This document shows positions 17,974-33,329 of a stretch of 64,000 nt of DNA, one piece after another. Origin of the DNA: Clostridioides sp. ES-S-0010-02. Lineage in GTDB: Bacteria > Bacillota > Clostridia > Peptostreptococcales > Peptostreptococcaceae. The notes beneath the pieces were generated by a model. The model worked only from the letters and a program-made list of their open reading frames with translations. It did no database searches and had not been told where the DNA came from. Each line of letters starts with the position of its first letter. The stretch's first letter is position 1. The DNA lies in assembly GCA_020641055.1 (NCBI GenBank), contig CP067345.1, forward strand, positions 4,023,317 to 4,087,316, read 5' to 3'. The translations under genes and the position numbers were made by a program.

Positions 17974-18378
17974 CTACTTTCCTATTTCCAGTGCTTTTGC
18001 TATCATAGACTTCTGAGCATTTAATGTATCTATATTAGACTCATATGCTCGTGAAGCTGTTATTAAATCTGTCATTTCAACCAATATATTTACATTTGGA
18101 TATTCTACGTATCCATTTGGCTTTGCATCTGGATGAGATGGGTCATATACTTCTTTAAGAGGTGATTTATCATCTTCAACAGATGTGACTTTTACTCCTA
18201 GCATACCTAATTTGTTATCATAGTTTTCTTCAAAGGAAACAATTTTTCTTCTGTATGCTTCTCCATTTGGACCTCTTGTAGCGTTTATGTTAGCTACATT
18301 AGATGATATGATATCCATTTTCAAGCTTTCTGCTGTTAAACCACTAGCAGAGATCTCCATTCCACTGAACACACTCAT
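17974..18378 (-). CDS. flgC: Proximal rod protein FlgC
   Basis: The 134 residues start MSVFSGMEISASGLTAESLK with NVANINATRGPNG, and end with ILVEMTDLITASRAYESNID, the paired N and C helices of rod proteins. The full NVEYPN-type stretch near residue 90 (YVEYPNVNILVEM) is characteristic of FlgC. It is the second gene of the early operon. Confidence 0.96.
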   Translation of the reverse strand: MSVFSGMEISASGLTAESLKMDIISSNVANINATRGPNGEAYRRKIVSFEENYDNKLGMLGVKVTSVEDDKSPLKEVYDPSHPDAKPNGYVEYPNVNILVEMTDLITASRAYESNIDTLNAQKSMIAKALEIGK

Positions 18379-18385
18379 CTTCTAA

Positions 18386-18709
18386 TTACCTCCCACTTAT
18401 TATTGATTTAGTCATTGCTATTTTACCATTTGCAAAACCTATCAAAGCATTGTATTGTAACGTTGTCATTGCTTGATTTACCTTTTCTTCTTCTATATCT
18501 ACATTATTACCATCCACTCTTAATCCCTTGGAATTGTCTGTTTTTTCTTCTATTTTAGGCATGGCATCATTTAATGTTTCTTCAAAAGTTACATAGTGTT
18601 TCTTATAGCCCTCAGTATTTATATTTGCTATATTATTTGCTATTGTCTGACTTCTTAAATTAGTTGCATCTAATCCCATTTTTATAATGTCATATGTATT
18701 CATACTCAC
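18386..18709 (-). CDS. flgB: Proximal rod protein FlgB, first gene of the early flagellar operon
   Basis: The 107 residues carry the rod signature LRSQTIANNIANINTEGYKK and a C-terminal helix. The start has a strong AAGGAGG ribosome site 9 bases upstream. The gene heads the early operon that ends with sigD. Its expression is gated by a long leader holding a c-di-GMP riboswitch and an invertible element, annotated separately. Confidence 0.96.
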   Translation of the reverse strand: MSMNTYDIIKMGLDATNLRSQTIANNIANINTEGYKKHYVTFEETLNDAMPKIEEKTDNSKGLRVDGNNVDIEEEKVNQAMTTLQYNALIGFANGKIAMTKSIISGR

Positions 18710-18756
18710 TCCTCCTTAAAATATTTTCATCTACTCTATTTATTAATTAAAAACAG

Positions 18757-18777
18757 AGTTGCTATATTACAAAAAAA
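18757..18777. repeat. Left inverted repeat of flagellar switch
   Basis: A 21-bp arm beginning AGTTGCTATATTAC and ending in seven A residues. It lies 48 bases upstream of the flgB start codon. It differs from the other arm at three positions (fourth, fifth and tenth). Confidence 0.88.
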
Positions 18778-18930
18778 TGACTTCTTTATTTATTCAAATT
18801 AATTACATTTCTATTACATTAATATAATAATGTATCATTTTAGTAAGAAAACAAATTTTTTCTCAGTAAACTCCAGTGAAAATAAAAAAAAAATTTAATA
18901 TATATTTAATTTTTTCTACGCAAAGTTGCC

Positions 18931-18951
18931 TTTTTTTGTAAAATAGTCACT
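18931..18951. repeat. Right inverted repeat of flagellar switch
   Basis: A 21-bp arm beginning with seven T residues, then GTAAAATAGTCACT. Its reverse complement pairs with the left arm at 18 of 21 positions. It is the promoter-proximal arm in the leader. Confidence 0.88.
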
Positions 18952-19040
18952 TTTTTATACGCTTTATCTTTATTTTAAATTATAAATCGGTAAAATTTGT
19001 TATTATATATACTTTCTACTGTAATAAAGTAATATTTTCA

Positions 19041-19068
19041 TAATAAAATGACCGCCAAAAAGGCAGTC
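19041..19068 (-). terminator. Riboswitch-controlled intrinsic terminator in the flgB leader
   Basis: On the transcribed strand a 7-bp stem (GACTGCC / GGCGGTC) with a TTTTT loop is followed by ATTTTATT. It sits 44 bases after the c-di-GMP aptamer. This is the expected expression platform for an OFF switch: ligand binding favours the terminator and lowers transcription of the early flagellar operon. The same arrangement is established for the Cd1 riboswitch of C. difficile. Confidence 0.9.
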
Positions 19069-19112
19069 AATTCGACTAATCCTACGCATACAGTATACTT
19101 AGGACTCTTTTT

Positions 19113-19189
19113 GGCAACTGGCTAGCATAGTTTGTTATACAAACCTTAGCCCCTATAGCTTTGCGTCGCTAGATTTCTCTAGTTTTGCC
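19113..19189 (-). ncRNA. Class I c-di-GMP riboswitch aptamer (GEMM-I)
   Basis: The transcribed strand reads GGCAAAACTAGAGAAATCTA, then GCGACGCAAAGCTATAGGGG, then CTAAGG, and closes with GCTAGCCAGTTGCC. Visible consensus elements are the outer helix GGCAA/TTGCC, the GAAA tetraloop on the P2 arm (CTAGA-GAAA-TCTAG), the GACGCAAAGC core and the GGGGCTAAGG strand. The terminator at 19041-19068 is its output. High c-di-GMP should therefore reduce motility gene expression. Confidence 0.95.
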
Positions 19190-19206
19190 TATTTAGTTTT
19201 AACTTA

Positions 19207-19235
19207 AGTATACAATAAATAACAATTTTTTTAAA
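19207..19235 (-). promoter_or_regulatory. Housekeeping promoter of the early flagellar operon
   Basis: A -10 element TATACT (19207-19212) and a weak -35 TTTAAA (19230-19235) are separated by 17 bases. The predicted start near 19200 gives a leader of about 490 nt, close to the roughly 500-nt flgB leader described for C. difficile. All riboswitch and switch elements fall downstream of it. Confidence 0.72.
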
Positions 19236-19321
19236 CATTTTTTACTTATATTTTTAATATTTCAATTAATATTCGATATTTATAGCTAAATATCCAGCAT
19301 AAATTAAGAATTTGTTATTAC

Positions 19322-19361
19322 AAAAAATAAAACAGCTTAAAATATTCATTCTAAGCTGTTT
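19322..19361 (-). terminator. Terminator after the radical SAM gene
   Basis: Inverted arms AACAGCTTA (19331-19339) and TAAGCTGTT (19352-19360) form a 9-bp stem. On the minus strand it is followed by a T-rich run; a T run also follows on the other strand. It ends the glycosylation block and isolates it from the flgB promoter. Confidence 0.82.
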
Positions 19362-19380
19362 TTATTTTTTATATAAATAT

Positions 19381-20508
19381 CTATAATGTAACTAGATGAG
19401 ATTCTTCTTTATCCCATTCAGGAGAAAACTTATTTCCTATTTGTATGAAAGAAGACTTTTTATTCCAATTAGCAAATGAAGATTGATAGCACACCTTACA
19501 TGAATCATTCATATTTACAGTATTAATATTTTTTCTAAACTTTTTATATTCCAAAGAATTCCACATTTCTTCAAAAGTTTTATATTTGTCAATATGAAAC
19601 AACTTTATAGGTGTAGACATACATGAACGTACAAATCCATCTGACCCTAAAAAAAAGTCTCTCCATGCTGTAAAACAATCCTTATGTAGTTTTTCACATG
19701 CACTATCTTCACCTTGTATATGAGGTAACTTAAGAATAATATTTAACTCATCTGCTAAAACCTCTGCTTCCTCAAATACTTTTTTAACCTCATCTTGGCA
19801 ATCATATAAACTTTCATCATGCATATTTTCATCAAATACAGTTAGATACACTACCTTAAGCTCTTGTAAACCTATTTTTTCAGCTAATCTAACCATTTTT
19901 GGTATCTCATACAAATTAGACTTCATTGCTGTGAAAACAAAATTCATATATGGCCAATTTATACCTCTTTTACTCTTTTCATCTGCTATATGTTTAATGT
20001 TTTTTATGATATGATTAAAATCAGCTCCTGATCTTATATTATCATTAATCTCTTTAGATGCCCCATCTAAACTTATAGCTATAATGTCAGTTTCTGTATT
20101 GAAGATATCATCAAATAATTTATCCAATTTCATACCGTTTGTACAAAAATATTTTCTAAGACCATTTTTTTTTGCCCAATATAAGAAATCAACAAAATTT
20201 GGATGTACTGTTGGTTCTCCCCAGCCCATTAAGGTTACTTCTTCTACTTCATTTAATATATTCTCAAATTTTTCAGTCCATTTAAAATCAAAAATTGTTG
20301 CTTTGAATTCTGCTGAATTTCTTCCACACATAATGCAATTTAAATTGCAAGCATTCGTAAGTTCAAATACTAATCTTCTGGGTTTCGCTTCTAGAATGAT
20401 AGTCTGATTATATGACTCACTTTCATTCAAATTGCTATTCTTTTGTTGTAACTCTGTCAAAGAGTTAGTTTGTTTTAAATCAATTGTTTTAGCTCTCAAT
20501 ATACTCAT
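19381..20508 (-). CDS. Radical SAM enzyme of the flagellin-modification block
   Basis: The 375 residues hold the radical SAM cluster motif C54-x3-C58-x2-C61 (CNLNCIMC), then the core SAM-binding pattern TLMGWGEPTVHP. C-terminal cysteines (CEKLHKDCF, SCMSTP, CKVCYQ) resemble a SPASM/twitch auxiliary-cluster domain. Such enzymes modify peptides or sugars by radical chemistry. Its substrate here is unknown; position at the end of the glycan block suggests a sugar, amino-sugar or flagellin-linked group. Start supported by AGAGGG upstream. Confidence 0.82.
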   Translation of the reverse strand: MSILRAKTIDLKQTNSLTELQQKNSNLNESESYNQTIILEAKPRRLVFELTNACNLNCIMCGRNSAEFKATIFDFKWTEKFENILNEVEEVTLMGWGEPTVHPNFVDFLYWAKKNGLRKYFCTNGMKLDKLFDDIFNTETDIIAISLDGASKEINDNIRSGADFNHIIKNIKHIADEKSKRGINWPYMNFVFTAMKSNLYEIPKMVRLAEKIGLQELKVVYLTVFDENMHDESLYDCQDEVKKVFEEAEVLADELNIILKLPHIQGEDSACEKLHKDCFTAWRDFFLGSDGFVRSCMSTPIKLFHIDKYKTFEEMWNSLEYKKFRKNINTVNMNDSCKVCYQSSFANWNKKSSFIQIGNKFSPEWDKEESHLVTL

Positions 20509-20536
20509 ATTGATATCCCTCTTATTTCTATGTATT

Positions 20537-21310
20537 TTACCATATTTTCCAAAAAGCTTTATTTTCTTTCCAAAGAGAATTAAGATTGTTCATATCTCTT
20601 TCATTGTCCATACATGCCCATAAACCTTCATGCTTATATACTGCTATTTCTCCTTTTTTAGCTAGATTTTCAAATAGACCATATTCCAAATCACACTCAT
20701 TATCTTCTGTGAGATATCTTAATAGTTTTTTATTAAATACCATATACCCACCATTTATTAACCCCTTTGATGTTTGTGATTTTTCTTCAAATGATTTAAG
20801 TACCTCACCATCTGCAATAAGTTCTCCAAATCTAGCAGGAGGTCTTACACCAGATATTGTAAGTAACTTACCAACTTTATTATGAAAGTGTATTAATTTA
20901 TTTATATTTATATTTGCTAATCCGTCTCCATATGTTAATAAATTTATATCTTCTTCAAGATATTTCTCTATTTTCTTTAATCGCGCTCCTTTTTGAGACT
21001 CTATACCTGTATCAACTAATGTTACTTTCCATTCACTTTCATCATGATTATTATGAAATTCTATTGAATTACTTCCTATATTAATCGTAAAATCATTATT
21101 TTTACTATCGTAATGCAGAAAATAATCTTTTATAACATTTGCTTTGTATCCAAGGCATATGATAAATTCTTTTACTCCATAATAAGAATATATTTTCATT
21201 ATATGCCATAATATTGGCTTCCCTCCTATTTCAACCATAGGCTTGGGAACTATACTAGTAATATCTCCAAGTCTACTTCCATATCCTCCTGCTAAAATCA
21301 CTACTTTCAT
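20537..21310 (-). CDS. rfbF: Glucose-1-phosphate cytidylyltransferase-like nucleotidyltransferase
   Basis: The 257 residues start MKVVILAGGYGSRLGDITSI with VPKPMVEIGGKPILWHIMKIY, the nucleotidyltransferase loop of RfbF-type enzymes. The length equals RfbF (about 257) rather than RmlA (about 290). A longer frame opening with GTG at 21325 exists, but the ATG at 21310 has a GTGAGG ribosome site at the right distance, so I chose it. Expected reaction: CTP plus glucose-1-phosphate to CDP-glucose. The next pathway enzyme, RfbG dehydratase, is not seen in this window. Confidence 0.83.
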   Translation of the reverse strand: MKVVILAGGYGSRLGDITSIVPKPMVEIGGKPILWHIMKIYSYYGVKEFIICLGYKANVIKDYFLHYDSKNNDFTINIGSNSIEFHNNHDESEWKVTLVDTGIESQKGARLKKIEKYLEEDINLLTYGDGLANININKLIHFHNKVGKLLTISGVRPPARFGELIADGEVLKSFEEKSQTSKGLINGGYMVFNKKLLRYLTEDNECDLEYGLFENLAKKGEIAVYKHEGLWACMDNERDMNNLNSLWKENKAFWKIW

Positions 21311-21410
21311 ATTAAAATGCCTCACTTAATTATAGTATATAAAAATTTAAGAATAGAATTTTTTATCAAAGATAGATATCATAGATAAGTAGAATTTCTC
21401 TATGATAATG

Positions 21411-22559
21411 TTAAAACTTGTATTTTTGTTCTCCATTTATTAGACTTACTTTAATCTTATGTTTGTCCAACAAATCCTTTATTTCATCCTCATAGTTCCA
21501 ATTCATTACTATAATCTTATCGATTCCTCTCATACATATATCTTTAAAAGAAACTATCTCATGTCCAGTTCCTGGTATAAATTTATTTTGTTTATTTTCA
21601 TTTATATCAATCACACAATCAATAAATTTATGTTGTGGATCTATATTATTCAAAAATGTAACTCCCTTAGCTCCTGCACCCCATATTGCTATCTTACTCT
21701 TTTCTGATTCTAAGTAATGTTTCCATCTTTCTGCCTGTATTCTTATATTTTCAGCATAATCAATAACTATATTTAAAATACTTTTTTTTATATTCTCGCC
21801 ATTTACCTTGCATATAGCATATAAATATTGTCCTTTAAAGGTATGGTTTATCTCTAATATATCAAATCCACATTCCTGTAATAACAAATTTAGTGACTTT
21901 TTATTAAAATATGAGCAATGCTCATAAAAAAAGTCATACATTATATTATTCTTTAGTATCCACTCTACACATGGTGTTTCAATATAAAGTATAGAGTTTG
22001 GAGAGTTTACTAGCGCCTTCTTTATTGATTTCATTATATCTTTAGGGTTTTGCATATGCTCTATGACATGTCTTATAAAAACGCAATCTGCAGATATATC
22101 TGTACATGTATCATCATAGTATTTTTTTTCAAATAGTAAGCTTCCATCTAACATGACAGTTTCTCCTACATAACTTGGGTCAAATCCATATCCTTTTCCT
22201 TTGGACCTTTGTATGAAAGTTTTGAGAAACTCTCCTTTCCCACATCCAACTTCTACAACGACTTTTTTACTTAAATTATATTCTTTAATTAAATATGATA
22301 TTATTTCATTAATATGACTTTGAAATCTAAATGAATGATTCTGTGTATTATCATAAAAATCATCATATTGTATTTTACTTGTGTCAAAACTAGTATTAAA
22401 AATAAACTCACAATGACTACATAAACCTACTATTAAATCACCCTTTACATCATTTATAGCAACTTCTCTGTTACTAAATATAAAATTTTGATGTATAGGA
22501 ACATTTTTTCTACTAAGAAAAATATTAATATTTTCTGATCCACATATAGGACATCTCAT
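21411..22559 (-). CDS. SAM-dependent C-methyltransferase-like protein for a nucleotide sugar
   Basis: The 382 residues have the three-part layout of TylCIII-type sugar C-methyltransferases: an N-terminal zinc-ribbon pair (C3, C6 and C47, C50), a class I methyltransferase core with VVEVGCGKGEF at 101-111 and a later FIRHVIEHM, and a C-terminal Rossmann-like half (KIAIWGAGAKGVTFLNN). Known relatives add a methyl to C3 of 4-keto-6-deoxy sugars. Its place between rfbF and rfbC supports action on a nucleotide sugar; the exact substrate is inferred. Confidence 0.78.
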   Translation of the reverse strand: MRCPICGSENINIFLSRKNVPIHQNFIFSNREVAINDVKGDLIVGLCSHCEFIFNTSFDTSKIQYDDFYDNTQNHSFRFQSHINEIISYLIKEYNLSKKVVVEVGCGKGEFLKTFIQRSKGKGYGFDPSYVGETVMLDGSLLFEKKYYDDTCTDISADCVFIRHVIEHMQNPKDIMKSIKKALVNSPNSILYIETPCVEWILKNNIMYDFFYEHCSYFNKKSLNLLLQECGFDILEINHTFKGQYLYAICKVNGENIKKSILNIVIDYAENIRIQAERWKHYLESEKSKIAIWGAGAKGVTFLNNIDPQHKFIDCVIDINENKQNKFIPGTGHEIVSFKDICMRGIDKIIVMNWNYEDEIKDLLDKHKIKVSLINGEQKYKF

Positions 22560-22651
22560 AACAATTTACCCCACTAAAGTTTTGTATACTACCTAGATTA
22601 TTATACTTATTTATACTTATTTTTCATATTCATATAAAATTACATTACTCA

Positions 22652-23194
22652 TTAATTGGATAATGCAATATATTCATCAAATGTTTGAAGTTCATTATCT
22701 TTGCTGGATATAATTGGACTAATTTTATTCCAATTTATATCCATAGAGTCCCATTTTATTCCACCTTCATTATTTGGAGAATACGGAGATGATAATTTAT
22801 AAATAACTATTGTATTCTCTTCTAGAGCTTGATATCCATGAGCAAACCCATTAGGTATATATGCTATATTTCTTTTTCTAGAATCTATATTAAAACAAAC
22901 ATGTTCACCATAGGTAGGAGAATCTTTTCTGATATCAACTGCTACATCTAAGATACTTCCTGAAACACAATAGATAAGTTTGCTCTGTACAAAAGGTTCT
23001 TTTTGAAAGTGTAACCCTCTTATAGTACCTTTCTTGGATGTTACAAATAAATCTTCATTAAAGAATTCATCTATCCCTAGTTTTTTAAAAGTTGGATAAT
23101 GATATGGTTTTATTGTTATCCCCCTACTATCTTCAAATATATTTGGTACTATTTCAACACAATCCTTTAGTTTAGTTTTTATGATGTTATACAT
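22652..23194 (-). CDS. rfbC: dTDP-4-dehydrorhamnose 3,5-epimerase-like protein RfbC
   Basis: The 180 residues fit the RmlC cupin: GTIRGLHFQ with the catalytic His62, the sheet segment KLIYCVSGSILDVAVDIR, and IPNGFAHGY with His119. RmlC epimerises C3 and C5 of 4-keto-6-deoxy nucleotide sugars. In this cluster the true substrate may be a CDP-linked or C-methylated sugar. A dTDP-rhamnose role is the alternative, but rmlA, rmlB and rmlD are not in this window. Confidence 0.85.
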   Translation of the reverse strand: MYNIIKTKLKDCVEIVPNIFEDSRGITIKPYHYPTFKKLGIDEFFNEDLFVTSKKGTIRGLHFQKEPFVQSKLIYCVSGSILDVAVDIRKDSPTYGEHVCFNIDSRKRNIAYIPNGFAHGYQALEENTIVIYKLSSPYSPNNEGGIKWDSMDINWNKISPIISSKDNELQTFDEYIALSN

Positions 23195-23205
23195 AATTAA
23201 ACCTC

Positions 23206-24123
23206 CTAATAATCAGTTCTTTCTACTTCTAACATACTCTTTATTCCTTCATATAATCCTATTATATCTTCATTTTCTAAAATATTTTCATCATTAATAT
23301 GAACTTTCATCATCTCTCGTTTTCTATATGGTCTTTTTCCCCAATTTATATCCAATTTTTCACCCACAACACACTGAAATATGTCCACAACTTCTCTTAA
23401 TGAATATATCTCTTTTGGTAGTGCAAAAAAAGTTCTACATTCTTTGGGACTCATCTTTTGTATTTTTTCCATTGCAATTAGATATGCTTTTATAACATCT
23501 TCTATGTAAAGTAAACCCAATTCTTGCTCTCCATTAGACATATCTAGTGTTTTGTTATTGAAGTATATATCCTTTAGTAAATTCATAATTTTAGGTCTTG
23601 GATCATAAGGTCCATATGTGTCAATCAATTTTATTGTTATAATACTCATGTTCGTTGCCTCAGCATAATACTTGCATATATCTTGAAAGGCTTCTTTAGT
23701 TGCTGCATATAAATTTACAGGATTATAATTTTCCCCATTATAATTTTGCCAGTGTGTTCCTGTGTTTATAAAATACTTCACATTTGCTTTTGAAGCTACA
23801 TCCAATACTTGAGTGGAAAATAGAATATTACTATTTATAATTTCATCTAATTGTGAAGGTAAGTGCTCACCTAAGAATAATGATGCTAGATGTATAACTA
23901 TATCCGGTTTTATATTATTTATAATTTCAGATAAATTGGATATTCCTCCCTTGAATCTATATATATTTATATAATCGTTAAATTCATCTATCAAATTTAG
24001 ATCAGAATCTACTCTTACTATAACATGAACATCATACCCTAATTCATATAGTTTTTTTGCTAGACAGGACCCAATATATCCACTAGCACCTGTCAAAAAA
24101 ATTTTCTTCAATTCGTTGCTCAT
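23206..24123 (-). CDS. Extended SDR, probable nucleotide-sugar 4-ketoreductase or epimerase
   Basis: The 305 residues have the NAD(P) motif TGASGYIG at 11-18 and the catalytic Y139-x3-K143. Before the Tyr there is TGTHWQNY rather than the TDEVYG-type acidic pair of 4,6-dehydratases. That and the short length favour a reductase of the CDP-abequose/paratose synthase type. It lies 11 bases before rfbC. The product sugar is unknown. Confidence 0.78.
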   Translation of the reverse strand: MSNELKKIFLTGASGYIGSCLAKKLYELGYDVHVIVRVDSDLNLIDEFNDYINIYRFKGGISNLSEIINNIKPDIVIHLASLFLGEHLPSQLDEIINSNILFSTQVLDVASKANVKYFINTGTHWQNYNGENYNPVNLYAATKEAFQDICKYYAEATNMSIITIKLIDTYGPYDPRPKIMNLLKDIYFNNKTLDMSNGEQELGLLYIEDVIKAYLIAMEKIQKMSPKECRTFFALPKEIYSLREVVDIFQCVVGEKLDINWGKRPYRKREMMKVHINDENILENEDIIGLYEGIKSMLEVERTDY

Positions 24124-24201
24124 AACTGACTATATCCTTTTTCAAATTTATTAATATCAATAATAAGTTAAATAAAGTATAAATTTTTATTTAATATTAT
24201 T

Positions 24202-26625
24202 TTATTTAGATATCTTTTTTATCTTTAATATATATTCACTAATATATAGTTTATCTCTTTGGTCTGTTGAGATATTACTGTCATCTAGTAATTCTTTAAC
24301 TTTTTCTTCTATATCATTATTAAAATTATATGAGTTAAAGTTTATACTTTCTATATACAGACCACAATTATTTAATTTATTATTAAATATTTCTATATTA
24401 ATATTTTTCATATCCTCATTCCATGAGTTAGAAATGACATTTTTAATTCTTAAAAATTCATTTATATCACAATTATTCTTTAACTTCAGAATAATCGTTC
24501 CTTTATCATTTAATACTTCATACAGGTTATTAAGCAAGTCATACATATCTTTGTATGAGTTTAATACTTTTCCTACTACAATATAATCAAAATTTTTACG
24601 TCTATAGTGTTTATGAAAATATTCTATACGATCAACAACTACATTTTCACATATAGTTTTTAAATCTAGCCAATACTTCGCCTCTTCTGAAAAAGCTGCT
24701 AGACTTACATTAGAAGCTCCTTTTTCCAATAATTTATTCTTTATTTGTAATATAGTTACTCCACAACTCGTATCTATCCCTAAAACACTATATTTTTTAT
24801 TGACTATTGTATCTGATTTAACCATTGAAACCATTGCATAATCAAAGCTAATAGCATCTACTATATCAATGTGATATTTCTCCTTAAAAAACTTTGGACC
24901 TTTTATTCTAGATATATTATCAAAATCACTACCTTTATCTGCTTTTTCCCCAATATTGCATACAAATGTATCTGTGCAAGCAATTACTTTATAACCACCT
25001 CTTCTTGCCCTAAATGAAATATCAACATCTGATGTGTGATGAACATATCCATAATCATATATACCAATAATATCCAAGCATTCTCTTTTAAATAATGTTG
25101 CTACTGTATATAAATCAAATATTTCATACCATTTCCTAGGATTAGAAATATTATATAACTCTGCTTTACTTTGCATATCATCCAAGTCTTTATACTCTAC
25201 TTCCATTTTATACTCTAAAGGTGCATGATTACAAGCAGGATGAACTATTCCTATTTTAGAATCCGATTCTGCACATTTTATCATATTTGAAAGCCAATTT
25301 GTTGTGACAACTACATCATTACACACAAAAACAATATATCTGCCATTCATCTCTCTAAATGCTGTTGAAAAAGAATATCCAACTCCAAAATTCTTAATGA
25401 CCTTAATTATTTTTTTTCTAGGATAATTTATTGACTTAAAATATTCATATGTTCCATCGCTAGAACCATTATCAAACAATATTAGTTCATAATCTATATC
25501 ATTAGTATATTTCAAAATGCTTTCAACACATCTTTTAGTATATTTTTCTAGATTATTATATCCCAATACCCATATACTTACTAGTGGGTTATCTCCTTCC
25601 TTTAATTTGTTTATATTTTCTCTAACTTCATACATACTATCAAAATCTTCTAATTTTTTTGGTAGTTTTTTATGAAAATTATCATCCAATATTACTTTTC
25701 CATATTTATCTTCAATAAATATGTTATCTTTTTTATAGCTTTTTTCAAATTCTATATTTCTGGAATTATATACTTCAGTTATTAAATCTTTTATATGTGA
25801 CTCTTCATCTCTATCAATAATGTCCAAAAGATGATTGTACTCATCAATTGATTTGTCCCAATCATGATTTTTATAATATGCATATGCTAAATTATAATAT
25901 ATGTCTATATTATCTTCTTTTACCATTGATTTTGCATATTCTAATAAATTTATAGCTATATTGTATTCATTCATTTGCATAGCCAGTATAGACTTCATAT
26001 TAATAAACTCTATATTATTACAAAATCTATCATTATAATAATATAGTAAATCTAATGCTTCTTCCAGCGAATTATTTTCTATTAATTCCTCTATACTACT
26101 TAGTACATCTACATCACTCTTAGAATATTTTATTAACATATTTCTAATGTCAAGCATAAAATTTTCGATATCTATTTTTGATTTATTTATAATATTTATA
26201 GTTAATTCATTTTCTCCATACTCATATGTAAAGTTATTTATTTTTTCTTCCAAAGTACTATTATAATCATAACTTTGAAGACTCCTCTCAAATATAGAAA
26301 CAATTATAGTTTTTTTTATTTCTAACTCTGAAATTAGTAGTTTTGATAACACCTTTAAATTTTCGTCTTTTACTATGAACAAAATATCTGCAAACCCAAT
26401 ACTATTTATTATGTTTTTATACTCTCTAATTAAATCAAGCTTGCTATTTAATAAATAATGCTCAGCTTCTAAAAACTCTTCCTTACAACTCAAACTTGTA
26501 TTATCACAAACTTGTAAAATACGAATATTATTACCACTTGTTTTTAAATCTCTATTAATTTGTTTTACAATATCATTAAAAATATCATTTTTAGATAATT
26601 CTCCTATTACTATATCTATAACCAT
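24202..26625 (-). CDS. Multidomain glycosyltransferase: degenerate GT-B lobe, TPR, GT2, methyltransferase-like tail
   Basis: About 807 residues if translation begins at the ATG at 26625. That start has TTAGGAGA about 10 bases upstream and gives an N terminus (MVIDIVIG) like the neighbouring MIIDIVLA; a longer frame starts at 26646. Visible parts: residues 1-180 resemble half of a GT-B fold without an obvious donor site, about 185-290 is a TPR block, about 350-590 is a GT2 domain (VSIWVLGYNN, LILFDNGSSDGTYEYF, FVCNDVVV in place of a DxD), and the end (VLGIDTSCGV, YIVVGKVLNSYKD) looks like a methyltransferase fold without clear SAM residues. Probably extends the flagellin glycan. Confidence 0.8.
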   Translation of the reverse strand: MVIDIVIGELSKNDIFNDIVKQINRDLKTSGNNIRILQVCDNTSLSCKEEFLEAEHYLLNSKLDLIREYKNIINSIGFADILFIVKDENLKVLSKLLISELEIKKTIIVSIFERSLQSYDYNSTLEEKINNFTYEYGENELTINIINKSKIDIENFMLDIRNMLIKYSKSDVDVLSSIEELIENNSLEEALDLLYYYNDRFCNNIEFINMKSILAMQMNEYNIAINLLEYAKSMVKEDNIDIYYNLAYAYYKNHDWDKSIDEYNHLLDIIDRDEESHIKDLITEVYNSRNIEFEKSYKKDNIFIEDKYGKVILDDNFHKKLPKKLEDFDSMYEVRENINKLKEGDNPLVSIWVLGYNNLEKYTKRCVESILKYTNDIDYELILFDNGSSDGTYEYFKSINYPRKKIIKVIKNFGVGYSFSTAFREMNGRYIVFVCNDVVVTTNWLSNMIKCAESDSKIGIVHPACNHAPLEYKMEVEYKDLDDMQSKAELYNISNPRKWYEIFDLYTVATLFKRECLDIIGIYDYGYVHHTSDVDISFRARRGGYKVIACTDTFVCNIGEKADKGSDFDNISRIKGPKFFKEKYHIDIVDAISFDYAMVSMVKSDTIVNKKYSVLGIDTSCGVTILQIKNKLLEKGASNVSLAAFSEEAKYWLDLKTICENVVVDRIEYFHKHYRRKNFDYIVVGKVLNSYKDMYDLLNNLYEVLNDKGTIILKLKNNCDINEFLRIKNVISNSWNEDMKNINIEIFNNKLNNCGLYIESINFNSYNFNNDIEEKVKELLDDSNISTDQRDKLYISEYILKIKKISK

Positions 26626-26710
26626 ATAGTTTAATTCTCCTAACATTATAATTTAATCAAGTATTTTTATTATATCTCCCAAATTAGATGTATATTTTTA
26701 GAGATTCTAT

Positions 26711-28912
26711 TTAAAGTAATGTCTCTAAGGAATGATAAAGTAATAATCTATACCAATTGTAAAGTATATTTTTATCTTCCTTTATTATATACTCATATTT
26801 ATTAGTCATTATTATAAATGCTTGTATAGCTTTTTGAGGTTGTTTTGAAATGCTGTCATTTTGAACATATGTTTTAACTAAAATTTTATCTACAAATGAC
26901 ACTTTATAATTTATAGCCATTCTTATCATTAAATCCCAATCTTGAAATCTAGGCAAATGTTCATCAAATTTTTGTCTTTCAAAACACTCTCTTCTTCCAA
27001 ATATTGTAGATGTGCCAATAAAATTACCACACATAAGTTCATATAACATCATGTCTTTATTTATATCTCTTCCAGGAAATACGCCTGATAACTCATTATT
27101 ATCAATATAGGAAGAACATCCTATTATATCCACACCTAAGTTCTCTAGATACTTAATTTGTGTTTCAAGTTTATCCAGCATCCATTCGTCATCACTATCC
27201 TGGAATGCAATATATTTACCCATACTATTTGAAATACCTGTGTTCCTAGCTATATTGGCGCCTAAATTTTTATTATGTTTTATGTATCTTATCCTTTTAT
27301 CATCTATATATTCTATTATTTTTTGTGTATTGTCCGAAGAATTATCATCAACTATAATTACTTCTATATTTTTATATGTCTGATTCAAAACACTATTTAC
27401 AGAACGATAAATTGTTTGTTCTCTATTGTAAGTTGGTATTATTACTGAAATTAATGAATGATGATATTGTTCACTTTCAATAAAAACATCATCAGAATTA
27501 TTATTTTTTTCTAATAATAGATTTATTTTATTTATCAATTCATCTTTTTCTCTATTACTTGAAAGATGTATGATTTTTTCATATATTTTTATAGCATTAT
27601 CAATTCTATTAACTTGTTCATATACATATACTAAGTTATAGTATATATCTAAACTTTCTTCATCAGAAATCTGTAATGCATATTCCAAATTGCTTATTGC
27701 TATATCGTACTCTTTCATCTTAATAGCTAAAATTGATTTCAAATTTATAAATTCTATATCATTTTTAAATCTATCATCATAATACTGAATAACTTCAAGT
27801 GCATGTTCTATATTATCCTCATGTAATAAACTTTTTATTTTTTTCATTATTACACCTTTTTTATCAGAGAATTTTAGAACAATACTTTCAAACTTATCAA
27901 CAACATTTTTTACTTTGAACTTATTAACTGAATTTACACATACATCCTTTGATGGTATCTTTATTCTTCCTTGTTGTAAGTCATTCAATATACTATATAG
28001 TTCACTATAATTATCTTTATCAAATAACCATCCATTAATTCCATCTTTAATTATATCTTTTGGACCATCACATTTACTAGAAATTACAGGTATGCCTCTT
28101 CCCAATGCCTCTACTAAGACTAAACCAAACCCTTCTTCATTTGATGTTAAAACCAATGCTGTCACTGAGTCTATATAATCCCAAGGCTTATCTAACCATC
28201 CGCACCATTCTATACAATCATCTATATTTAAATCTTTGCATAACTGTTTCAATTTCTTTTCATCTGGTCCATTTCCTATAATTTTCAGCGTCCATGACTT
28301 GTCTAACAATGAAAGAGCCCTAAATAATATATCAATTCTTTTTTGATTATTTTCAAGCCTACCTATATACACTAATTCTAATTTTTCTTTATTTGAGCTA
28401 ATTACATTAAAAGTATCTATATTAACTGGATTTCCTACATAATACACTTGACCTGTAACATAATTTTTTATTTTCTCTTCTATGTATTCAGAAATGGCAA
28501 GATGAGCATTACTATAATTAAGATTTTCTCCTCCACCATAATATTCTGGTGCCCCATGAATCCAAGATATAATAGATGGTTTACTATCTCCCAAATGCAT
28601 TACTGCTATATTACTTATTAAACTTAATACTGGAGCATGAGTTGCAATTATAACATCAGGAATTCCTATACTATCAATTATACGTCTATACCCTAATGCT
28701 AAACTAAATTCATCATCTTCTTCTATATTGTTATTAATACCATAAATATACATTTCTGGTATAGTCTTTTTCCATTCTATATATTTGGGTTCATAAGCTT
28801 GAAACACTCTTACTCTATATCCCTTATTTATTAACTCATTGCTGATAGATGTTATAACTTCTTCCAATCCACCTCTTCCATTTGCATAAGCTAAAACTAT
28901 ATCTATAATCAT
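26711..28912 (-). CDS. Two-headed glycosyltransferase: GT4, TPR hinge, GT2
   Basis: The 733 residues hold two catalytic domains. Residues 1-345 are a GT4 (GT-B) transferase with ENNQKRIDILFRAL, KIIGNGPDEKKLK and the E-x7-E site in EGFGLVLVEALGRG. Residues 350-465 are TPR-like. Residues 485-733 are a GT2 domain (VSVIIPTYNREQTIYRSVNS, VDDNSSDNTQ, acidic DSDDEW metal site). Two sugar additions from one polypeptide are likely. The TPR part closely resembles that of the next gene downstream, which suggests duplication. Confidence 0.85.
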   Translation of the reverse strand: MIIDIVLAYANGRGGLEEVITSISNELINKGYRVRVFQAYEPKYIEWKKTIPEMYIYGINNNIEEDDEFSLALGYRRIIDSIGIPDVIIATHAPVLSLISNIAVMHLGDSKPSIISWIHGAPEYYGGGENLNYSNAHLAISEYIEEKIKNYVTGQVYYVGNPVNIDTFNVISSNKEKLELVYIGRLENNQKRIDILFRALSLLDKSWTLKIIGNGPDEKKLKQLCKDLNIDDCIEWCGWLDKPWDYIDSVTALVLTSNEEGFGLVLVEALGRGIPVISSKCDGPKDIIKDGINGWLFDKDNYSELYSILNDLQQGRIKIPSKDVCVNSVNKFKVKNVVDKFESIVLKFSDKKGVIMKKIKSLLHEDNIEHALEVIQYYDDRFKNDIEFINLKSILAIKMKEYDIAISNLEYALQISDEESLDIYYNLVYVYEQVNRIDNAIKIYEKIIHLSSNREKDELINKINLLLEKNNNSDDVFIESEQYHHSLISVIIPTYNREQTIYRSVNSVLNQTYKNIEVIIVDDNSSDNTQKIIEYIDDKRIRYIKHNKNLGANIARNTGISNSMGKYIAFQDSDDEWMLDKLETQIKYLENLGVDIIGCSSYIDNNELSGVFPGRDINKDMMLYELMCGNFIGTSTIFGRRECFERQKFDEHLPRFQDWDLMIRMAINYKVSFVDKILVKTYVQNDSISKQPQKAIQAFIIMTNKYEYIIKEDKNILYNWYRLLLYHSLETLL

Positions 28913-28937
28913 ATTCTAGTACTCCTTATCAGGTTAA

Positions 28938-30011
28938 TTATAAGTCAAAGGTTTCTTCCATTTTATCCAAAATAATATTTGTAGAATAGCAATAAACTGA
29001 TTTTATAGCATTCTTTTGCATTTCACATAATTCATAATAAGATAAATTTAATAATTGTGTAATTTCTTTATAAAGTGACTCTGAGTTACACTCCCTTGCT
29101 AAATATCCATTGCATCCACATTCTATAATTTCTCCTATGCCTCCACAATCAGTGGCTACAACTGGTATCCCTCTATTTAATGCTTCTAAAATAACCATTG
29201 GAAATGCCTCGTATTCTGAACTAAGTAATAATGCTTTTTTATAATTTATATACTTCCATGGATTTCTTACATATCCTTTCATCTTCACTTTATCATTAAG
29301 GTTTAATTCGTTTATTATACATTCTATATATTTTTTATCTGGCCCATCTCCATAAACATCTAAAGTCCATTCAGCCCCTAATTTAGAAAGAGAAGTAAAT
29401 AGTATGTCAAATCTCTTTGTATAATTTTCTAGCCTTCCGATATACACAAAATTATTTTCAAGTGATATATCAAGCATATCTACATTTATATCTATGGGAT
29501 TTGGAATAGAATAAATATCTTTCTTGTTAATTAGTCTTTCTAATTCATATGTTAAATTAGTGGAAATAGACCAATGTATGTCTGCATACTTTAAATATTT
29601 AGAAGAATCTCCGAACAATTCCAAGGAACTATGCATCCAAGAAATTACTTTTATATCTTCATACCCAACAGTCAATCTAGAATATAAAACAGTTATTGGC
29701 ATGTGAGTTCCTATTATTATATCTGGTTTACCTAAATCTATTAAGATTCTGTTTATTCCTTTTACTTTTGACAATATTAAATCAAAGCCATTCATACTCT
29801 TACAGTCTTCATAATTATTATAATAATAGACATTATGTAAATTAAGTTCCCATGTATAATCATCGCTTCTATTGGGTAGCAAAACTATTACGATATACCC
29901 TCTTTTTTCTAATTCATTCACAACTTTAGTTACTACTGTTTCAACTCCTCCTTGGCCACTTAAATGCTCAAGAACGAAAAATATTTTTTTTATCTTAGAT
30001 AAACTATACAT
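28938..30011 (-). CDS. GT4-family glycosyltransferase
   Basis: The 357 residues have the GT-B N-terminal SGQGGVETVVTKVVNELEKRGY glycine-rich stretch, KVISWMHSSLELFG, and the C-terminal donor site DVYGDGPDKKYIE with SSEYEAFPMVILEALNRG (E-x7-E). It resembles the first 345 residues of the 733-residue neighbour but stands alone. A role in adding one sugar of the flagellin glycan is inferred from position. Confidence 0.85.
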   Translation of the reverse strand: MYSLSKIKKIFFVLEHLSGQGGVETVVTKVVNELEKRGYIVIVLLPNRSDDYTWELNLHNVYYYNNYEDCKSMNGFDLILSKVKGINRILIDLGKPDIIIGTHMPITVLYSRLTVGYEDIKVISWMHSSLELFGDSSKYLKYADIHWSISTNLTYELERLINKKDIYSIPNPIDINVDMLDISLENNFVYIGRLENYTKRFDILFTSLSKLGAEWTLDVYGDGPDKKYIECIINELNLNDKVKMKGYVRNPWKYINYKKALLLSSEYEAFPMVILEALNRGIPVVATDCGGIGEIIECGCNGYLARECNSESLYKEITQLLNLSYYELCEMQKNAIKSVYCYSTNIILDKMEETFDL

Positions 30012-30126
30012 ATTCCCTCCAAATACACTAAAATATATGCTTCTATTTTTATATATATTAATTTATAATTAACCTTATTAAAGTTAGAAAGTGCAATTAA
30101 ATTTTTTAATACTTATAATGTAAATA

Positions 30127-32265
30127 TTATTTTTCATAACTACTCACTTCTTTTAAATACTTTATATTATACATAATATCACCATTACTTATATCTAATG
30201 AAAGTGCTTTTTTCAAATAAAAATCTGCCTCTGCATACTCTCCAGACATTATATGTATTATTCCCTTTATATTTAATATTTCAGAGTCCTCTCTAAATGA
30301 CTTCAAATACTTGTCAATTAAATCTCTCGCATCACTTATATTTCCTTTTTCTATAACTTGCTTTATACTATCTATAAAATTTACTCTTAGTACATTAAGT
30401 TCTATATTTTGATTCAATTCATATTCAAAATCTTTTATTATAAGTTTTATAATTCTATGGTAATATGGATATTCATTTAATAGTTCTTTTAACTTTCTTA
30501 AATAAATTATTTTATCGCTATCCTTATAGTCCATAATACTATTAAATTTTATAACAAATTTATCCATTTCATTAGACATATATGTTAATAAATCTGTATA
30601 GTCCAAATTTGCATATATATTTTTTATATATATACTAGAATACATAATATAGATATAAAACAACTCTTTATATTTATCATCATTTAAAATGTTATTTTCT
30701 AAAATTATTTTAGTAAATACTCTGTATACTTTTACCTCATGTATCTCAAAAGTATTCTTTTGTCTTAAAATATACTTATATAATTTCAAACTAAATTCTC
30801 TATCATACATAACACAGTATCTTACATATCTCTCAATCCATGAGTAATCCATATTCAAAAATATATCCAATAAATCTATATTATTTAAGTATGCAATATT
30901 TATAATAGGTGCATATATATCATTTTTTTCTTTTTTTAAAATATCTTTACATTCATCTGAAGATATTTGATTTAATAATCTTATATTATTAAATCTTCCA
31001 TATACCCCTTTTATAGAACTTAGTATTTTATAAATATCACTTTTTTCATCTTCTCTTATATTATTCAAAAAAAGTTCTAAACTATTATAAAAACTATTTT
31101 TTTCAATTGCTGATTTTTTTAGCTTATCATGATACTCATTTATTAAACTAAATTTATTTAGTTTATACAATGACATAAACAAGCTAAAATAGACATCTTT
31201 CCTTTTTTCGTAATCTATAATATTTTCAAACTCTTTTATAACTAAATCATATTTCTCCAGCTTATAGTAGATTTTTATTAGGGTTACAGTTGCACTATCT
31301 TTCAAACTTACAGTATCTGTATCTGAGAATAGACTATTAGCTTGAGTGCTCATTTCATAATTGTCAATTAAGTAAATATATCTTTTATATGAATCTAAAG
31401 CATACTCATACTTCCCTAAACTAACTTGGGTTTGAGCTAAGTAGTAATATATATCTATATTATTTAAATCTTTCTCTATATATTTTAAACATAATTTTTC
31501 ACACTTTTTATTCTTTCCCAAAAACAAATATACTTTTGCCAAATTGGTTATTAAATAACCTGGCATTAATCCTATTTTTTTATACAAAATAATACTTTTT
31601 TCCAAATAAAATAATGCATCCTGATACTTTTCCAATATAATAAAATTCTTACCAAGCTGATAATTAGTATATGGATTTTCATTATTTTCACTTAATTGTT
31701 GAAATAGAAGTTTTTCATTTCTTTTAACTTTATATAATCTAACTTCTTCATCTTCAAACATATACCCATAGTGATCAAATTGAGCTACATTATGAAATAC
31801 AGGTTCTTTATATAATGGTTGTTCATGAACTTTACCAATAAATTTAAAACCATTATTTTTAAATAGCCTTAATACAGATCCATATCCATAAGAATCTTTT
31901 TCTATAGAGTATATATTTTTTAATTGTATTGATGCTGAATTAAAAGTTTTATGTAAATCACTATCAAAAAACTCAATTAGTTTTGTACAATCTGTTAGTA
32001 TTTCATCAGCATCTAATACAAAGACCCAATCCCCTTTAGAATATGATATAGACTTATTCCTCATACTAGAAAAATCATCATCCCATTTGTGAAAATAAAC
32101 ATTTTTAGTATAATTTTTTGCTATATTGATAGTATTATCAGCTGACCCAGTATCTATTATTATAAGTTCACTATCTATTGAATCCATTAGTACTTTTAGA
32201 GATTCTAACATCTTTACTAATATCTTTTCTTCATTTTTGACAATCATTACTATACTCAACAACAT
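30127..32265 (-). CDS. GT2-family glycosyltransferase with TPR region, likely first flagellin glycosyltransferase
   Basis: The 712 residues begin with a GT2 catalytic domain (LSIVMIVKNEEKILVKMLES, IIIDTGSADNTINIAK, metal site DAD at 85-87 in VLDADEIL, and WDDDFSSMRNKS). From about 190 to the end is a long helical TPR-like region that could bind unfolded flagellin. The first gene after fliC in C. difficile encodes the transferase that attaches the initial O-linked sugar (established for other strains); the same role is inferred here. Confidence 0.85.
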   Translation of the reverse strand: MLLSIVMIVKNEEKILVKMLESLKVLMDSIDSELIIIDTGSADNTINIAKNYTKNVYFHKWDDDFSSMRNKSISYSKGDWVFVLDADEILTDCTKLIEFFDSDLHKTFNSASIQLKNIYSIEKDSYGYGSVLRLFKNNGFKFIGKVHEQPLYKEPVFHNVAQFDHYGYMFEDEEVRLYKVKRNEKLLFQQLSENNENPYTNYQLGKNFIILEKYQDALFYLEKSIILYKKIGLMPGYLITNLAKVYLFLGKNKKCEKLCLKYIEKDLNNIDIYYYLAQTQVSLGKYEYALDSYKRYIYLIDNYEMSTQANSLFSDTDTVSLKDSATVTLIKIYYKLEKYDLVIKEFENIIDYEKRKDVYFSLFMSLYKLNKFSLINEYHDKLKKSAIEKNSFYNSLELFLNNIREDEKSDIYKILSSIKGVYGRFNNIRLLNQISSDECKDILKKEKNDIYAPIINIAYLNNIDLLDIFLNMDYSWIERYVRYCVMYDREFSLKLYKYILRQKNTFEIHEVKVYRVFTKIILENNILNDDKYKELFYIYIMYSSIYIKNIYANLDYTDLLTYMSNEMDKFVIKFNSIMDYKDSDKIIYLRKLKELLNEYPYYHRIIKLIIKDFEYELNQNIELNVLRVNFIDSIKQVIEKGNISDARDLIDKYLKSFREDSEILNIKGIIHIMSGEYAEADFYLKKALSLDISNGDIMYNIKYLKEVSSYEK

Positions 32266-32302
32266 AATTATTTTCCTTTCAGTATACCTTTATTATAAAA
32301 TT

Positions 32303-32336
32303 ATAAAAAGCAAAGCAGTGCTTTGCTCTTTATAAT
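32303..32336 (-). terminator. Terminator after fliC
   Basis: The arms AGCAAAG and CTTTGCT around 32309-32327 form a GC-containing stem with flanking A and T runs. The minus strand reads TGCTTTGCTTTTTATAA at its end. It lies 18 bases past the fliC stop. Some read-through would feed the glycosyltransferase gene downstream, for which I see no clear promoter. Confidence 0.82.
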
Positions 32337-32353
32337 TAAAATATTTATAAACT

Positions 32354-33226
32354 TTATCCTAATAATTGTAATACTCCTTGTGGTTGCTGATTAGCTTGAG
32401 CAAGCATTGATTGTGATGCTTGTACCAATATATTCATTTTAGATAGTGTAACCATTTCTGAAGCAACATCTGTATCTCTTATTCTTGACTCTGCTGCTGT
32501 GACATTTTCTATAGTATTATTTAAGTTATTTTGAGTTGATTCTAATCTATTTTGTTGTGCTCCTAACTTTGCTCTTGATGTATTTACTTCTTTTAATGCT
32601 ACATCTAAACTAGATGCCATTTGTTTAGCTGCATCTGTCCCTGATGAACCAGCAGTCTTCATGTTGCCAATTGTTGTACTTGTTATATTTGCCTTACTCA
32701 TTACATTAGAAGTGTTGACTAACTCTACAGTTATTTCATTGTTATTGTTACTTGTTCCAGCTACATTTGTTCCATAATTAGCTCCAACTTGTAATCTTAC
32801 GTTTGAAGAACTTCCATCTAATAATTTCTTTCCATTAAACTCAGTTGAACTTGAAATTCTTTCAATCTCATCTTTTAATTGAGATAACTCATCTGCTATC
32901 TTTTGTCTTTCTTCATTAGTGTTAGTTTCATTTGCAGATTGTATTGATAAAGTTCTCATTCTTTGTAATATATTTCCAGTTTCTTCTAGAGCACCTTCTG
33001 CTGTTTGTACAACAGATATACCATCTTGAACGTTTCTACCAGCTTGGTCTAAACCTTTAATTTGTGCTCTCATTTTTTCAGATATTGCAAGACCAGCAGC
33101 ATCATCAGCAGCTCTCTTTATTCTAACCCCAGAAGATAACTTCTCCATAGATTTACTTTGAGCACTTACGTTTCTTCCCATTTGATTATTTGCTATTAAA
33201 GCACTTACATTTGTATTAACTCTCAT
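32354..33226 (-). CDS. fliC: Flagellin FliC
   Basis: The 290 residues are a compact flagellin. The N-terminal D0/D1 part (MRVNTNVSALIANNQMGRN, then LSSGVRIKRAADDAAGLAIS) and C-terminal D1/D0 part (VTAAESRIRDTDVASEMV, ending QPQGVLQLLG) are joined by a short variable region (about 150-200) rich in Ser, Thr and Asn, where O-glycans would attach. It is expressed from a sigma-D-type promoter and its leader has a CsrA-type hairpin. Confidence 0.97.
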   Translation of the reverse strand: MRVNTNVSALIANNQMGRNVSAQSKSMEKLSSGVRIKRAADDAAGLAISEKMRAQIKGLDQAGRNVQDGISVVQTAEGALEETGNILQRMRTLSIQSANETNTNEERQKIADELSQLKDEIERISSSTEFNGKKLLDGSSSNVRLQVGANYGTNVAGTSNNNNEITVELVNTSNVMSKANITSTTIGNMKTAGSSGTDAAKQMASSLDVALKEVNTSRAKLGAQQNRLESTQNNLNNTIENVTAAESRIRDTDVASEMVTLSKMNILVQASQSMLAQANQQPQGVLQLLG

Positions 33227-33233
33227 TAATTTA

Positions 33234-33263
33234 CCCTCCTTAGTATGGTTGACATCCTTGTCA
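33234..33263 (-). promoter_or_regulatory. Probable CsrA-binding hairpin and Shine-Dalgarno site in the fliC leader
   Basis: The transcribed strand has TGACA-AGGA-TGTCA at 33250-33263, a 5-bp stem with AGGA in the loop, then eight bases later the ribosome site AAGGAGGG (33234-33241). Two GGA motifs, one in a hairpin loop and one at the ribosome site, are the standard arrangement for translational repression by CsrA, as in the Bacillus hag leader. fliW and csrA are encoded a few kilobases upstream in the same block. Confidence 0.8.
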
Positions 33264-33300
33264 TTTCTACTTTTAATTTTTATATTAATCCTTCATCTAT

Positions 33301-33329
33301 ATAATCGGACAAGTTAATCTATAACTTTA
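33301..33329 (-). promoter_or_regulatory. Sigma-D-type promoter of fliC
   Basis: On the minus strand TAAA (33326-33329) is followed after 16 bases by TCCGATTA, close to the flagellar sigma consensus TAAA-N15-GCCGATAA. The predicted transcript would start near 33295 and include the CsrA-type hairpin. Confidence 0.78.

Follow-up and report, generated by a model that had tools for sequence, protein, structure and literature searches.

Which enzyme would supply the 4-keto sugar to a sugar-modifying module that has no CDP-glucose 4,6-dehydratase (RfbG)? The question is raised by a 64,000-nucleotide stretch of the genome of Clostridioides sp. ES-S-0010-02 (CP067345.1, positions 4,023,317 to 4,087,316; hereafter the window), whose flagellar locus, on the minus strand, contains a glycan island bounded by fliC and flgB. 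Four genes of this island lie side by side at 20537-24123, as a first-pass annotation of the window had pointed out. They encode a short-chain dehydrogenase/reductase (SDR), an RfbC-type epimerase, a methyltransferase (MT) and the cytidylyltransferase RfbF. We put it at somewhat better than an even chance that the island represents one more type of flagellin glycosylation in the genus, and that its 3' half forms a CDP-sugar module derived from an RfbF-RfbG-(RfbH)-RfbC-SDR set by loss of RfbG and gain of a methyltransferase. As a gene set beyond the two types named for C. difficile, the island documents cassette exchange at fliC-flgB. It also predicts a new flagellin sugar, and the missing RfbG poses the question of what makes the 4-keto form.

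A predicted CDP-sugar module between fliC and flgB

The four open reading frames (ORFs) are all intact. Their products can be described as follows.

23206..24123, minus strand: SDR, predicted CDP-4-ketohexose reductase; T123, Y139 and K143 conserved, no Asp-Lys or Asp-Glu dehydratase pair
22652..23194, minus strand: RmlC/RfbC-type epimerase; TIGR01221, 165.4 bits (cut-off 155.75)
21411..22559, minus strand: MT, S-adenosylmethionine (SAM) methyltransferase of a sister subfamily of the TylCIII/TcaB9 sugar C-methyltransferases
20537..21325, minus strand: RfbF, glucose-1-phosphate cytidylyltransferase; TIGR02623, 326.9 bits (cut-off 300.25); 1tzf, E=1.2e-71

RfbF passes the NCBIfam equivalog cut-off for its enzyme and RfbC passes that of the NCBIfam rmlC model, so the names first given to these two proteins stand. 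The listed RfbF frame opens with a GTG at 21325, but an ATG five codons in, at ~21310, fits its relatives better and is the likely start. The SDR is an Epimerase-family SDR by Pfam, and its T123, Y139 and K143 are invariant in 13 aligned sequences. T123 followed by Y139xxxK143, without the Asp-Lys/Glu pair of dehydratases, makes a fingerprint like that of the GalE redox type in a published table (PMC8987622; here and below, papers given by PMC number are cited from excerpts). This agrees with the ketoreductase type assigned earlier, and from its neighbouring genes the SDR is predicted to reduce a CDP-4-ketohexose. The SDR was also considered as the missing dehydratase itself. This idea was rejected, as the Asp-Lys/Glu pair is lacking and the SDR co-occurs with RfbG in other genomes.

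How might such a module work? From what is directly seen (gene families, intact ORFs, conservation and no detectable RfbG) we infer every reaction, their order and the product as follows. The ancestor of the module would have lost RfbG, plus RfbH from the locus, and gained MT. RfbF would convert CTP and glucose-1-phosphate to CDP-glucose. The 4-keto form would come from an enzyme outside the module or from an unorthodox step, the candidates being the RmlB of an S-layer cassette and C4 oxidation by an SDR. RfbC would then invert C3 and/or C5, MT would methylate the ketosugar (C- and O-methylation are both candidates) and the SDR would reduce C4. Finally, an island glycosyltransferase would join the sugar to a glycan started on flagellin by a GT1-like protein. 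The CDP-sugar branch that had been proposed for this flagellin glycan locus is supported, and we consider it likely.

Are the module genes still under constraint? One answer comes from the fliC-flgB interval of seven other Clostridioides genomes (genomes carry G labels, one per species; G000 is the window's own, a single contig of 4,259,110 bases). The G004 interval (L050) is related to the window, with SDR-RfbC-RfbF in the same order and protein identities of 61, 67 and 82%, respectively. NG86 dN/dS between the two genomes is 0.24 for the SDR, 0.29 for RfbC and 0.11 for RfbF, values that are rough since dS (0.9-1.3) is near saturation. Low ratios together with the same gene order therefore indicate that these genes are not decaying. 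This bears on a different explanation, that cassette exchange left the module behind and that, with RfbG lost, it is used only in part or has no function. RfbG and RfbH are indeed gone from the locus without a detectable remnant, and the fliC-flgB region varies strongly among the eight genomes of the genus. However, every ORF is intact, RfbF has the low ratio just given, and the same three genes have been retained in G000 and G004. A leftover module is, in our estimate, quite improbable.

The missing 4,6-dehydratase

The first-pass annotation remarked that a 4,6-dehydratase is missing from the window. This is right, and it extends to the whole genome, where no RfbG is found over the cut-off ("absent" meaning throughout below the thresholds given). 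The best hit of TIGR02622 reaches 101.6 bits against a cut-off of 278.45. The model matches four places at E<=1e-5, all under the cut-off. The best of the four is an RmlB in another cluster, which matches the dTDP-glucose 4,6-dehydratase 6bi4 (E=1.5e-126) and sits beside RmlA (named by inspection) at 1.126 Mb, in an S-layer cassette. The other three are the window SDR and, named by inspection, a GalE-like and a PglF/CapD-like protein. With RfbG undetected in this one-contig genome, the 6-deoxy nature first ascribed to the sugar is not secured.

Could a decayed RfbG lie inside the island? This possibility was rejected by tblastn of 18000-33500, which gave no significant remnant of RfbG or, with one RfbH query, of RfbH; the remaining genome was not searched for RfbH. 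A second candidate was a radical SAM/SPASM gene that starts 28 bases downstream of rfbF and was absent from the first-pass annotation. It was rejected as a replacement for RfbG, since radical SAM/SPASM genes are also present in islands with RfbG.

Perhaps RmlB acts in trans. This is a specific form of the favoured account, in which the S-layer RmlB either gives dTDP-4-keto-6-deoxyglucose or converts CDP-glucose, and RfbC, MT and the SDR go on to make a methylated 6-deoxyhexose. Both RmlA and RmlB are present at 1.126 Mb, and RmlB is the sole hexose 4,6-dehydratase of its kind among the four dehydratase-model hits. However, the S-layer cassette has 2,3-dehydratase, Gfo/Idh, RmlC and SDR genes of its own. 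RfbF would be redundant, yet no module gene is better conserved, and RfbF-RfbC-SDR is retained in G004, where the dehydratase model gives no hit at E<=1e-20. Furthermore, dTDP/UDP-glucose and CDP-glucose dehydratases are separable by their published fingerprints (PMC8987622). In our estimate, a contribution of RmlB in trans is unlikely.

What if no dehydratase is used at all? In this hypothetical route C4 of CDP-glucose is first oxidised by an SDR. Epimerisation by RfbC and methylation of the ketose by MT come next, and re-reduction by the SDR then yields a methylated hexose, CDP-linked and not 6-deoxy. In line with this, RfbG is in neither Clostridioides genome with the module, and the fingerprint of the SDR is of the GalE redox type (PMC8987622). 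In addition, RfbF and methyltransferase genes occur together, with no RfbG in the stretch, in G222, G321, the phage contig L142, L158 and L159. These five loci have an extra GalE-like SDR, however, and the window is without one. Moreover, relatives of the window SDR almost always accompany RfbG, as would be the case for a plain reductase. We hold this route to be rather unlikely. If it were true, flagellin would bear a methylated hexose with its 6-hydroxyl kept, and the same logic would account for the loci with RfbF and a methyltransferase and without RfbG in several bacteria and phages. It would then be a route to methylated sugars that is new to us. The likelihoods given here for the different explanations overlap, some of these being specific forms of the favoured account.

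The S-layer cassette deserves a description of its own. It lies at 1.112-1.132 Mb (L057), ends at a Cwp84-like gene (named by inspection) and contains an NDP-hexose 2,3-dehydratase (PF03559, 403 bits), a Gfo/Idh oxidoreductase, RmlC, an SDR, RmlA and RmlB. This is a dTDP-2,6-dideoxyhexose-type set, and differs from the published dTDP-rhamnose cassette of Ox247 (PMC6254364).

Relatives of the module and its likely ancestor

If RfbG was lost, relatives that still have it might be expected. The SDRs of the window and of G004 were aligned, and the alignment was searched across 398 genomes of the phylum (E<=1e-30); 11 matched, including the window's own, with G419 the weakest. A scan of named genomes added one more relative, in Anaerobacterium chartisolvens (G775, 48%). 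All 11 of the non-Clostridioides genomes that bear a window-type SDR and were searched whole (G746, G440, G685, G704, G617, G429, G539, G578, G409, G419 and G775) have an RfbG over the cut-off. It is in the same cluster as the SDR in nine of them, on another contig in G440 and elsewhere in G746. Five SDR-bearing genomes were seen later, and RfbG is at the locus in four (G027, G824, G854 and G799), not in G777. It is also within the stretches of G828 (blastp only), G806 and G019, and not in those of G777 and G898. A search of the order (335 genomes) found RfbF in 42, including G000 and G004, and neighbourhoods were read for nine of the 40 others. Among plasmid records, 109 match MT, two of which were examined (L158 and L159), and 186 match the SDR, one of which was examined (L157).

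The relatives of SDR-RfbC-RfbF sit in two kinds of surroundings. One is the cluster of RfbF, RfbG, RfbH, RfbC and SDR, which we take to be "ascarylose-type", and the other is the RfbF-RfbG-SDR-MT flagellin island. G539 has the order RfbF-RfbG-SDR-MT between its flagellin and fliD genes. In G617 the order RfbF-RfbG-RfbC-MTc-MT-SDR, where MTc is a canonical C-methyltransferase, is found downstream of the flagellin gene.

A further relative is G027, which belongs to another genus of the same family. It has a flagellar island with fliC upstream and flgC downstream, in the order GT1, GT24-like, two FkbM methyltransferases, radical SAM, GT4, SDR, RfbC, RfbF, RfbG and RfbH, the last two both over their cut-offs. 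Identities are 56% for the SDR, 60% for RfbC and 81% for RfbF. The RfbF tree pairs G000 with G004 (99/97) and places G027 as the sister of this pair (100/99). This placement fits the loss of RfbG within the genus Clostridioides. The G027 island is likely to be the ancestral form of the module, and the simplest account is that RfbG was lost in this genus and that differing additions followed.

What were these additions? After RfbF, where relatives have RfbG-RfbH, G004 has a UDP-glucuronate-decarboxylase-type SDR (best match 2b69, E=1.7e-41) and a nucleotide-sugar dehydrogenase (L050:14712-17092), which may constitute a CDP- or UDP-pentose branch. In the window, MT lies between RfbC and RfbF, and the radical SAM gene follows RfbF. 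The window MT has no match at E<=0.001 in any of the seven sister genomes, and RfbF has none at E<=1e-60 in the six other than G004.

One further idea about RfbF was dropped. A first tree (31 sequences) had put the "no-RfbG" RfbF proteins into one group (88/80). However, with a different set of 24 sequences the label needs five changes, so these proteins are no longer regarded as a single clade.

The methyltransferase and its product

The first-pass annotation called MT "TylCIII-like". For the superfamily this holds. MT has the Pfam domains Methyltransf_23 (PF13489) and, at the C-terminus, Methyltransf_14 (PF08484), and its best solved relatives are the D-mycarose 3-C-methyltransferase 4rv9 and TcaB9. 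It shares with TylCIII, TcaB9 and MtmC (PDB 4rv9, 3ndi and 5t64) the domain order, the four-Cys site (C3, C6, C47 and C50, invariant in 10 sequences), the SAM motif, two conserved His and the Glu of the Glu-His (EH) pair. It differs from them at the Tyr of Y-x-E-H, in the HGGS/HGGE loop and in its place in the tree. Together with its relatives in G451 (45%), G539 (44%) and G617 (34%), MT forms a clade apart from the canonical enzymes (100/99; 14 sequences, none from the PDB). Judged by its sequence, MT thus belongs to the TylCIII/TcaB9 superfamily, but in a sister subfamily with altered motifs, and the description as a plain TylCIII falls away: TylCIII function is not proven. That MT methylates a sugar is likely.

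Which sugar position would be methylated? One clue is the company that MT keeps. A scan of genome contigs with MT alone gave no relative, and the relative loci that were counted number ten: G451, G539, G617, the phage contigs L141-L145, Leisingera L158 and S. meliloti L159. Outside this count are L146 (26%) and L147 (unopened). A canonical C-methyltransferase is also present in eight of the ten, the exceptions being G539 and the short contig L143. The window island has the variant type only. The canonical partner makes it possible that MT carries out a different methylation step.

This leads to the suggestion that MT is an O-methyltransferase, or acts at another position, and that the product is not branched-chain, which would be compatible with the favoured account. 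The altered motifs of the sister subfamily point this way, and where a canonical enzyme stands beside it MT probably has a different job. There is also a precedent in O-methylated rhamnose on type B flagellin of C. difficile (PMC5207245). Against it, the four Cys, the SAM motif, the two His, the EH-pair Glu and the Methyltransf_14 domain are all kept, and the G539 module shows no such enzyme besides the MT relative. We regard O-methylation or another position as a serious possibility, though short of even.

Several observations count against the favoured account, that of a CDP-sugar module with RfbG lost and MT gained. Some concern the methyltransferase. The YHEH-type motif and the HGGS/HGGE loop have catalytic roles in TylCIII-type C-methyltransferases. 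In the MT subfamily the canonical DTIYHEH is replaced by a YDFFYEH-like motif and HGGS/HGGE by F-x-x-Q-Y; in MT the Tyr of Y-x-E-H is a Phe, and the Glu-His and the upstream His are retained. At these motifs MT departs from the proven C-methyltransferases. Methyltransf_13 (PF08421) has 0 matches at E<=0.001 in the window's own genome, MT included. The others concern the dehydratase. The 4-keto intermediate would need a source other than RfbG. Neither G000 nor G004 has an RfbG match at E<=1e-40, and in G004 the RfbG model, which detects RmlB-like proteins in other genomes, gives no dehydratase hit at E<=1e-20, no RmlB-specific model having been run there. Lastly, RfbF without RfbG is uncommon, although it is not unique. 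Among 58 other genomes of the class with RfbF (E<=1e-40), an RfbG match at E<=1e-40 is present in 46, and in 32 of those it exceeds the curated cut-off. Twelve have no match; six of these are <90% complete and eight belong to one family.

The consequence for the earlier term "methyl-branched" is that it is not secured, because MT belongs to a sister subfamily with the motifs replaced; eight of the ten relative loci, besides, carry both kinds of enzyme.

Two of the relative loci lie on plasmids. A Leisingera plasmid (L158:4865-10330) and an S. meliloti plasmid (L159:4074-8143) have RfbF and, after it, a GalE-like SDR, a canonical C-methyltransferase and a window-type MT, and RfbG is in neither stretch. 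In L158 the SDR and the methyltransferase share one 785-codon frame, and in L159 the RfbF frame has only 174 aa. The viral contigs L144 (5583-8069) and L145 (5980-8472) carry genes for RfbC and for the window-type and canonical methyltransferases, the window-type one being split over two overlapping frames in both.

Comparison with known systems

A review names two ways in which the flagellin glycosylation operon of C. difficile is organised (PMC10889297), and diversity of the F2 region between fliC and flgB was already known (PMC7677006). The window shares with type A (strain 630; PMC10889297, PMC7677006) the site and a GT1-like first gene. However, type A as described in these excerpts has phosphatase-, nucleotidyltransferase- and CDP-glycerol-transferase-like genes, the first two of which were seen in G005, and no CD0241-CD0244-like genes lie between fliC and flgB of the window. 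With type B (R20291/027) the window shares the site, the GT1-like first gene and a glycosyltransferase with a methyltransferase-like part. In type B the order is GT1, GT2 and GT3, then FemAB, ATP-grasp, OCD and FdtB-like genes (PMC5207246), and there is also an FdtA-like gene and an rml operon upstream of fliC. The window island has none of these. No FemAB, ATP-grasp, OCD or FdtB gene was found between its fliC and flgB, and no rml operon was seen in the window, where the ORFs tested from 41771 on are purine genes.

Among the sister genomes, G001, G003, G006 and G007 have the type B gene set (with a Pfam check on G001 only, and with the G003 stretch stopping at the contig end), and the G005 interval, likewise cut off by a contig end, resembles type A. 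G002 (L051) has another set, with at least three DegT-family aminotransferases among the genes tested plus further sugar genes. Of the five sister genomes that allow a comparison, G001 comes closest, with 96.4% DNA identity over 6.2 kb of flagellar genes. Since the type A-like and type B sets differ from the window's, the earlier opinion that the locus matches neither that of 630 nor that of 027 is borne out. A less-described glycan type also seems an apt term, as no paper on this Clostridioides gene set was found in the open-licence literature.

By analogy, the nearest tested pathway found is that of CDP-6-deoxy-L-altrose in Campylobacter jejuni HS:41, in which a cytidylyltransferase, a CDP-glucose 4,6-dehydratase, a 3,5-epimerase and a C4-reductase make the sugar (PMC12369002). 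This CDP-6-deoxy-L-altrose/CDP-D-fucose pathway and the window have the cytidylyltransferase, 3,5-epimerase and C4-reductase types in common. In contrast, the dehydratase is present in HS:41, whereas the window is without it and has MT. A second comparison is with the flagellar glycosylation island of Clostridium butyricum DSM 10702, which also has RfbF-based CDP-sugar genes and for which CDP-paratose was predicted from sequence only (PMC13317340). Unlike the window, it has RfbG, RfbH and RfbS, and the excerpted account does not mention a C-methyltransferase.

CDP-3,6-dideoxyhexose clusters (G027, G824, G854, G799, G429, G578, G409 and Qipengyuania L157) share RfbF, RfbC and an SDR of the same family with the window. 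They have RfbG and RfbH, whereas the window locus has neither and has MT added. Yersiniose, the model proposed in the first-pass annotation, was rejected: its dedicated enzymes were not seen, and the neighbours indicate deoxyhexose/dideoxyhexose clusters. The relatives lie either in CDP-3,6-dideoxyhexose-type clusters or in RfbF-RfbG-SDR-MT islands.

The rest of the island

Between fliC and flgB there are nine minus-strand ORFs of >=90 aa. By Pfam these are four glycosyltransferases, the SDR, RfbC, MT, RfbF and the radical SAM/SPASM protein. The features outside the module are listed here.

32354..33226, minus strand: fliC flagellin, the island's upstream edge; Pfam Flagellin_N/_C, 87-93% identity across the seven sister genomes
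30127..32265, minus strand: GT1-like glycosyltransferase, first island gene; GT2 domain and TPR, 60-67% identity in seven of seven sister genomes
28938..30011, minus strand: GT4-type glycosyltransferase, by domain search
26711..28912, minus strand: glycosyltransferase of two domains; GT4, TPR and GT2
24202..26646, minus strand: glycosyltransferase that recurs in related islands; TPR and GT2, weak C-terminal methyltransferase-like match
19381..20508, minus strand: radical SAM/SPASM protein, last island gene; PF04055 and PF13186
19110..19199, minus strand: c-di-GMP-I riboswitch in the flgB leader, the island's downstream edge; Rfam RF01051, 80.2 bits
18386..18709, minus strand: flgB, flanking flagellar gene, named by position and similarity

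The GT1-like protein probably adds the first sugar to flagellin; GT1 of R20291 adds GlcNAc (PMC5207246). At the other edge, five sister genomes have stretches that extend as far as flgB, which is 95-99% identical in them, and the flgB leader can be aligned with the leaders of five sister genomes at 80-91% identity.

Radical SAM/SPASM genes recur in related flagellin islands, with one to three in each of L050, L101, L104, L105, L106 and L130, and none in L100. L104 also carries a B12-binding radical SAM gene. In Anaerobacterium chartisolvens (L070), a related glycan cluster with the SDR adjoins genes for collagen-like GPT repeats, not flagellin, and has four radical SAM/SPASM-like genes, one of them Pfam-checked.

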